From Microcaldota archaeon (GTDB lineage: Archaea; Micrarchaeota; Micrarchaeia; Micrarchaeales; CABMGC01), in assembly GCA_028867435.1 (NCBI GenBank), contig JAGWGI010000008.1, forward strand, positions 1 to 45,937: a stretch of 45,937 nt of DNA. Direction: 5' to 3'. The translations under genes were made by a program, and so were the position numbers. This document shows, piece after piece, positions 39,088 to 40,100 of this stretch (within the stretch, counting starts at the first letter, position 1; the number at the start of each line of letters is the position of its first letter). A model generated the notes under the pieces. It had not been told where the DNA came from, searched no databases, and saw nothing but the letters and a program-made list of their open reading frames with translations.

Positions 39088-39256
39088 TAATTCACCCTCG
39101 ATAATATCTCGAATGATATATTTATATAGTTATCCTCGAGGATACGTCAACAAACTAAAAATTTTATCTCGTCAATTTATGGTATTTTGCGCGATTTTTG
39201 CGCATTCGGCTGCCGAGAATCAATTTAAACCTTTGTTGCCAAATCTATCTGATTGG

Positions 39257-39991
39257 ATGATCGAGATAAAACTATTCAAAGAGGCAAAGCTGAAGGGATA
39301 CACGCTAATAGAGGGATTCCCGGGCGCAGGCCTTGTTGGACCCATGGCAAACAGCTACATAATCGAGAAGCTGGACATGGAGTACATAGGCCATATAGAA
39401 AGCGAGGAGTTTCCGCCGATAGCTGCCGTGCACGGCGGGGTGCCGATGTTCCCAGTGCGCATATACAAGGAGGACAAGTACAAGACGGTTGTGATAATGT
39501 CAGAGTTCACAATACCCACACAGGTTATCTATCAGCTGGGCAATGAGCTGGTGAACTTCATAAGGAAGCAGGGAATCGCGCAGGTGATATCCATAGGCGG
39601 GATGCCTTCGCAGAAACCCACGGATGTAGCATACGGCGTTGCGACAAACAAGGCACTCACGCAGAAGCTAAAAGATGCCAAGATAAGCCCGATAAACGAG
39701 GGGGTTGTTGCCGGGGTGAGCGCACTGCTCCTTGCCAACAGCAGCGAATTTGGCATACCAGTCACCGACATACTGGTGCAGGTCGACCCAGCGGTAATGG
39801 ATCCCAGATACGCGGTCACTGCAATAATCAACCTCAAAAAGTTGATAAAGATCCAGGTGGATGTCAATGAGCTGGAAAGGGAATCTGCAGTGGTTGAGGC
39901 TAAGGTTAAGGATATACTAAAGAAGGCCAGGGACACCCACGAGAGCTACAAGAATGCGGTTGACGCCACAGGGCCTTCGATGTATGCGTAG
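39257..39991 (+). CDS. PAC2-family proteasome assembly chaperone-like protein
   Basis: LIEGFPGAGLVGPMANSYIIEKLDMEYIGHIESEEFPPIAAVHGG and ISIGGMPSQ; upstream part of the 39113 ORF judged noncoding. Confidence 0.88.
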   Translation: MIEIKLFKEAKLKGYTLIEGFPGAGLVGPMANSYIIEKLDMEYIGHIESEEFPPIAAVHGGVPMFPVRIYKEDKYKTVVIMSEFTIPTQVIYQLGNELVNFIRKQGIAQVISIGGMPSQKPTDVAYGVATNKALTQKLKDAKISPINEGVVAGVSALLLANSSEFGIPVTDILVQVDPAVMDPRYAVTAIINLKKLIKIQVDVNELERESAVVEAKVKDILKKARDTHESYKNAVDATGPSMYA

Positions 39992-39996
39992 TAGTT

Positions 39997-40100
39997 GCAG
40001 GGGTTGCAGAGTCTGGTCTGGCAGCAAGCCACAGAAAAATGCGCAGGACTTAAGATCCTGTGGCCTAGCGCCTTCGAGAGTTCAAATCTCTCCCCCTGCA
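39997..40100 (+). tRNA. tRNA-Leu (anticodon UAA) containing a ~20-nt D-loop insertion (candidate intron 40018-40037)
   Basis: Acceptor GCAGGGG/CCCCTGC-A, anticodon arm CAGGA-CTTAAGA-TCCTG, variable arm, T arm GAGAG-TTCAAAT-CTCTC; 104 nt, 84 nt after removal of the insertion. Confidence 0.9.

Follow-up and report, generated by a model that had tools for sequence, protein, structure and literature searches.

Within the window (the whole stretch of 45,937 nucleotides that was analysed), a gene for tRNA-Leu(UAA) contains an insert in its D-loop. It raises the question whether this insert is spliced out of the precursor, stays in the mature tRNA or marks a gene in decay. The source genome is a Micrarchaeota genome of 1.05 Mb with a completeness of 94%, and the gene is the only one for tRNA-Leu(UAA) that was seen in it. 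It comprises a 7-bp acceptor stem, a 3-bp D-stem (GCA/TGC), an anticodon arm with a 5-bp stem and the loop CTTAAGA, including the anticodon UAA (CAGGA-CTTAAGA-TCCTG), a long variable arm and a T-arm. ARAGORN called no tRNA on the unspliced stretch, and Rfam RF00005 yielded a sub-threshold partial match alone on the intact gene, with 21.8 bits and a start at 40021. Once 20 or 18 nt of the insert (coordinates in Table 1) were taken out, ARAGORN returned a normal cloverleaf. Thus, it is the D-loop insert that makes the tRNA finders run here miss the tRNA-Leu(UAA) of this micrarchaeon. The letters and coordinates given for the gene in an initial annotation, which was made from the sequence alone and had already proposed an intron, all proved correct on re-check.

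Table 1. Features of the tRNA-Leu(UAA) locus and of the insert in its D-loop (positions in the window).
Feature	Position	Strand	Basis or remark
PAC2-family gene, directly upstream of tRNA-Leu(UAA)	39113..39991	+	PF09754, E 5e-40
tRNA-Leu(UAA) gene including discriminator A, insert in D-loop	39997..40100	+	stems read, ARAGORN, minimum-energy fold
Central helix H, 5' strand TCTG, exon	40012..40015	+	pairs with 40032-40035
5' bulge GTC with predicted 5' splice site	40016..40018	+	cut between GT and C (20-nt register) or after C (18-nt register)
Intron hairpin TGGC-AGCAA-GCCA	40019..40031	+	helix pairs kept in 93-100% of relatives
Central helix H, 3' strand CAGA, intron	40032..40035	+	minimum-energy fold, relatives
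3' bulge AAA with predicted 3' splice site	40036..40038	+	conservation in relatives
Predicted intron, 20-nt register (cut after second of three nucleotides in both bulges)	40018..40037	+	alternative 18-nt register: 40019-40036

The isolated D-arm was folded with a minimum energy of -10.7 kcal/mol (ensemble -10.78). The resulting structure consists of a 4-bp helix TCTG/CAGA, the 3-nt bulges GTC and AAA and a hairpin with the stem TGGC/GCCA, and is exactly the one that had been drawn from the letters. The same D-arm is retained in the predicted fold of the whole pre-tRNA, which is a cloverleaf. A chance hairpin was rejected by the comparison with relatives and by shuffling of the 20-nt insert, as both 4-bp helices appeared in the same geometry in 5 out of 200,000 shuffles. 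The arrangement is that of a relaxed bulge-helix-bulge motif of the HBh' form: the central helix has about 4 bp, a bulge of 3 nt lies 3' of the helix on each strand and TGGC/GCCA forms the helix on the intron side. The exon side is represented by the 3-bp D-stem alone, beyond an internal loop, so that the minimum-energy fold also bears out the imperfect outer helix of the initial annotation. Furthermore, a normal tRNA is left after removal of the insert, and homologues without it exist.

These intronless homologues were found in two places. G113, a genome of the same order, has a tRNA-Leu(UAA) with the ordinary D-loop GAGCCTGGTCAAA (L122), and the other parsed members of its genus carry the intron. 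Seven further tRNA-Leu(UAA) genes, parsed from another family of the class (f4), are intronless as well. It had been suggested at the outset to look for relatives that lack the 20-nt block, and it is indeed absent from G113 and the seven f4 genes. In addition, the four other tRNA-Leu genes of the source genome have ordinary D-loops with no insert at this site. The PAC2-family gene marks the orthologous locus; it lies upstream of the tRNA in L005, L047, L054 and L061 and, as in the window, upstream of the intronless gene of G113. There, a TnpB-like gene is situated between the two (G113:C3:153000-157000, L404). Two candidates for intronless tRNA-Leu(UAA) genes of the order, L150 and L152, were discarded and are actually tRNA-Leu(CAA) and tRNA-Leu(UAG). 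Since both families of the order carry the intron and the outgroup is without it, the simplest history that the sequences suggest is a gain before the order diversified (or a loss in f4), presumably followed by one later loss in G113.

The distribution of the insert was determined in 164 genomes of the order, which belong to two families, and in 137 other genomes of the class. Most of these genomes are metagenome assemblies. A tRNA-Leu(UAA) was detected almost everywhere in the 164 genomes, and nearly all matches skipped the D-arm of the spliced query. An explicit intron pattern matched in 104 of the 164 genomes and in none of the 137 others, while the reversed pattern gave no match in the same genomes. 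When the intron pattern was run against named public genomes, 116 stretches matched. NCBI places 98 of them in the phylum Microcaldota, mostly under the title Candidatus Micrarchaeota, among them a Candidatus Mancarchaeum and Candidatus Micrarchaeum sp. A_DKE. The scan also brought up about ten records of bacteria, which were regarded as chance matches.

When all fetched loci were parsed, 125 different tRNA-Leu(UAA) genes with the intron were obtained across the order, a count that takes in those whose D-stem holds an A-C pair. The 5' bulge has a length of 3 nt in every one of them (GTC in 69, GTT in 32 and GAA in 24). The 3' bulge reads AAA in all but one (124), which has AAT instead. The initial annotation had named as counter-evidence relatives that share the expansion and have lost the bulges; no such case occurred among the 125 genes. 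Pairs 2-4 of helix H are paired throughout, and pair 3 covaries between TA (73), TG (42) and CG (10). None of 2000 shuffles, which ignore the kinship of the sequences, was as well paired at this position of H. A smaller compensatory series was observed in the intron helix (GC/GT/AT and CG/TG/TA). The cores of the helices hardly differ between the genes, while the hairpin loop varies freely between 3 and 20 nt, with 116 distinct loops among the 125 genes.

A non-canonical intron of this kind should depend on a splicing endonuclease of broad specificity, and a three-unit enzyme of the ARMAN type had been predicted for this genome. The only EndA found in it has 383 aa and is indeed of the epsilon2 type. 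It is a single chain with three units (alphaN-alpha-betaC) in the size class of about 390 aa, and its residues 13-383 align to residues 15-387 of the ARMAN-2 epsilon2 enzyme (4fz2) with an E-value of 1.1e-156. The catalytic residues Y236, H251 and K282 (ARMAN-2 numbering) as well as Y160 and K161 of the ARMAN-specific loop are present at the aligned positions. Lys228, Ser252, Arg275 and Trp384, which are named as RNA-contacting in the ARMAN-2 enzyme (PMC12397907), are conserved too, so that all nine checked residues are kept. Epsilon2 enzymes are known to cleave relaxed motifs (PMC6379350, PMC4033280). In family f4, most genomes (G184-G226) possess a second, short splicing-endonuclease homologue of about 150-210 aa, which accompanies a three-unit enzyme of roughly 400 aa.

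Given the fixed bulges, the kept and covarying helices, the drifting loop, the intronless orthologues and the epsilon2 EndA, the insert is very probably (about 95%) an intron of the protein-spliced archaeal kind, located at position 20/21 of tRNA-Leu(UAA), as the initial annotation had it. In the folded precursor, the D-loop exon TCTG would be paired with CAGA near the 3' end of the intron. Thereby, a relaxed bulge-helix-bulge motif would form that has a central and an intron helix and, in place of a full outer helix, no more than the imperfect D-stem. The homodimeric epsilon2 endonuclease would then cut in both 3-nt bulges, its lineage-specific loop (Tyr-Lys) presumably providing the tolerance of relaxed motifs, and a putative tRNA ligase would join the halves to a tRNA with an ordinary D-loop. 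We infer that cleavage and ligation take place, and likewise where the cuts lie (20 or 18 nt). Among the observations against this reading are pair 1 of helix H, which is T-A in 89 genes and mismatched in 36 out of 125 (C-A in 35, A-A in one), the intron stem, whose sequence is more conserved than a pure spacer requires, and the short D-loops that the canonical cut would leave.

Concerning the cut register, the canonical motif is cut on each strand between bulge nucleotides two and three (PMC12397907), which leads to an intron of 20 nt. Its fold is 5 kcal/mol more stable than that of the 18-nt register. The initial annotation had stated that this cut leaves an ordinary D-loop; however, the D-loop would be 2 nt shorter than that of every parsed intronless relative. 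It would have 11 nt, or 10 nt in the genes with a GAA bulge, in which the canonical cut would take out position 20 altogether, and it has no counterpart among the parsed intronless tRNA-Leu genes. Their D-loops have 12-13 nt and end in TCAAA, TCAAT, CCAAC or AAAA. Alternatively, the endonuclease might cut a real intron with both sites shifted inwards by one base and release 18 nt, a variant that concerns the splice sites alone and overlaps with the intron reading given above. Helix H would then be CTG(G)/(A)CAG with a G-A pair, the bulges would be TCT and AAA and the intron helix would have 3 bp. This cut would join TC to AAA, TT to AAA, TC to AAT, TC to AAC or AA to AA, and such D-loop ends closely match the intronless tRNA-Leu genes of G113, of f4 and the other four of the source genome. 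Moreover, the net length of the insert in the window gene relative to its intronless G113 orthologue is 18. On the other hand, the 18-nt register has the less stable fold and puts an invariant G-A mismatch into the central helix. As the 20-nt cut would leave D-loops unlike those of the parsed intronless tRNA-Leu genes, we lean slightly towards 18 nt on the basis of these sequence comparisons.

It is very improbable that the insert is retained as a lasting part of the mature tRNA, in the form of an extended D-arm hairpin, even though the expansion is conserved throughout the order and its helices are stable. A loop that changes freely in size and letters, combined with a constant 3-nt 5' bulge and a constant AAA, is typical of an endonuclease substrate. 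The insert is missing from some orthologues and from sister tRNA-Leu genes, and the same genome contains the matching endonuclease and other apparent non-canonical introns. Decay of the gene, or a spurious resemblance to a tRNA, would explain why tRNA finders reject the unspliced gene, but this pseudogene reading was rejected as hardly credible because none of the other stems is damaged, orthologues are spread over the order, often beside the same PAC2 gene, and no other tRNA-Leu(UAA) was seen in the 94%-complete genome.

In 44 of the 125 intron-bearing genes, e.g. L064, L073, L005 and L006, the D-stem pair 12-23 is A-C (GCA...CGC). This mismatch was found in none of the eight intronless genes and never in the class with a GAA bulge. 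Editing, a bulged A12 with a G13-C23 pair or plain tolerance are possible explanations. The TGGC/GCCA stem is nearly invariant while its loop drifts, and A12-C23 is confined to intron-bearing genes. Both observations would fit an added role of the intron hairpin, and it is conceivable, if unlikely, that it holds the D-arm together before splicing or serves an intron-dependent modification or editing that repairs the mismatch.

Besides tRNA-Leu(UAA), Rfam alignments pointed to anticodon-loop introns in several other tRNAs of the source genome. They also showed apparent inserts in the D-loop of tRNA-Ser(GCU) and in the T-loops of tRNA-Leu(CAA) and tRNA-Arg(UCU) (G000; L116, L117 and L118). The latter three are likewise short D- or T-loop inserts with sister tRNAs that lack them, but differ in tRNA and position, and their motifs were read by eye only. 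In other genomes, a 3' piece of tRNA-Leu(UAA) is duplicated 1-1.7 kb downstream of the full gene (G063, G067 and G058:C31). An AbiEii toxin gene and a probable partner lie between the tRNA copies in G063:C29:9900-12100 (L401) and G067:C16:12700-15000 (L403), an arrangement reminiscent of a small island targeted to a tRNA gene. The listed ORFs that separate the full gene from the 3' piece showed no integrase.

The 125 variants of one bulge geometry, together with intronless outgroups, make tRNA-Leu(UAA) a clean natural set of substrates for the epsilon2 endonuclease, whose structure has been solved. They also allow a direct check on whether cleavage keeps to the canonical register in relaxed motifs. 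The intron itself is of an established kind, given that position 20/21 introns and epsilon2 endonucleases have been described before. This position is listed among the known non-canonical ones of archaea (PMC4090602), ARMAN-1 and ARMAN-2 belong to the archaea for which multiple-intron tRNAs are listed (PMC4033280), and genomes that combine an epsilon2 enzyme with many non-canonical introns have been reported (PMC12397907, PMC6379350). No paper naming a D-loop intron in tRNA-Leu(UAA) was found in the literature searched, which did not extend to the 2011 ARMAN endonuclease paper, and the intron is possibly already tabulated in earlier ARMAN literature. Possibly new are how widely it is conserved, the doubt over where it is cut and how often intron-bearing genes have the A12-C23 mismatch in the D-stem.

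Compared with the epsilon2 endonuclease of ARMAN-2 (Candidatus Micrarchaeum acidiphilum; 4fz2, 9w2k; PMC12397907), the enzyme of the source genome matches the three-unit chain over its full length with the same catalytic and loop residues. It shows no notable difference and can be regarded as an ordinary orthologue. The intron shares its position, size class, 3-nt bulges and relaxed HBh' layout with the known archaeal bulge-helix-bulge introns at 20/21 (PMC4090602). It differs from them in that it resides in tRNA-Leu(UAA), is conserved through an order of the Micrarchaeota and has an almost invariant intron stem.
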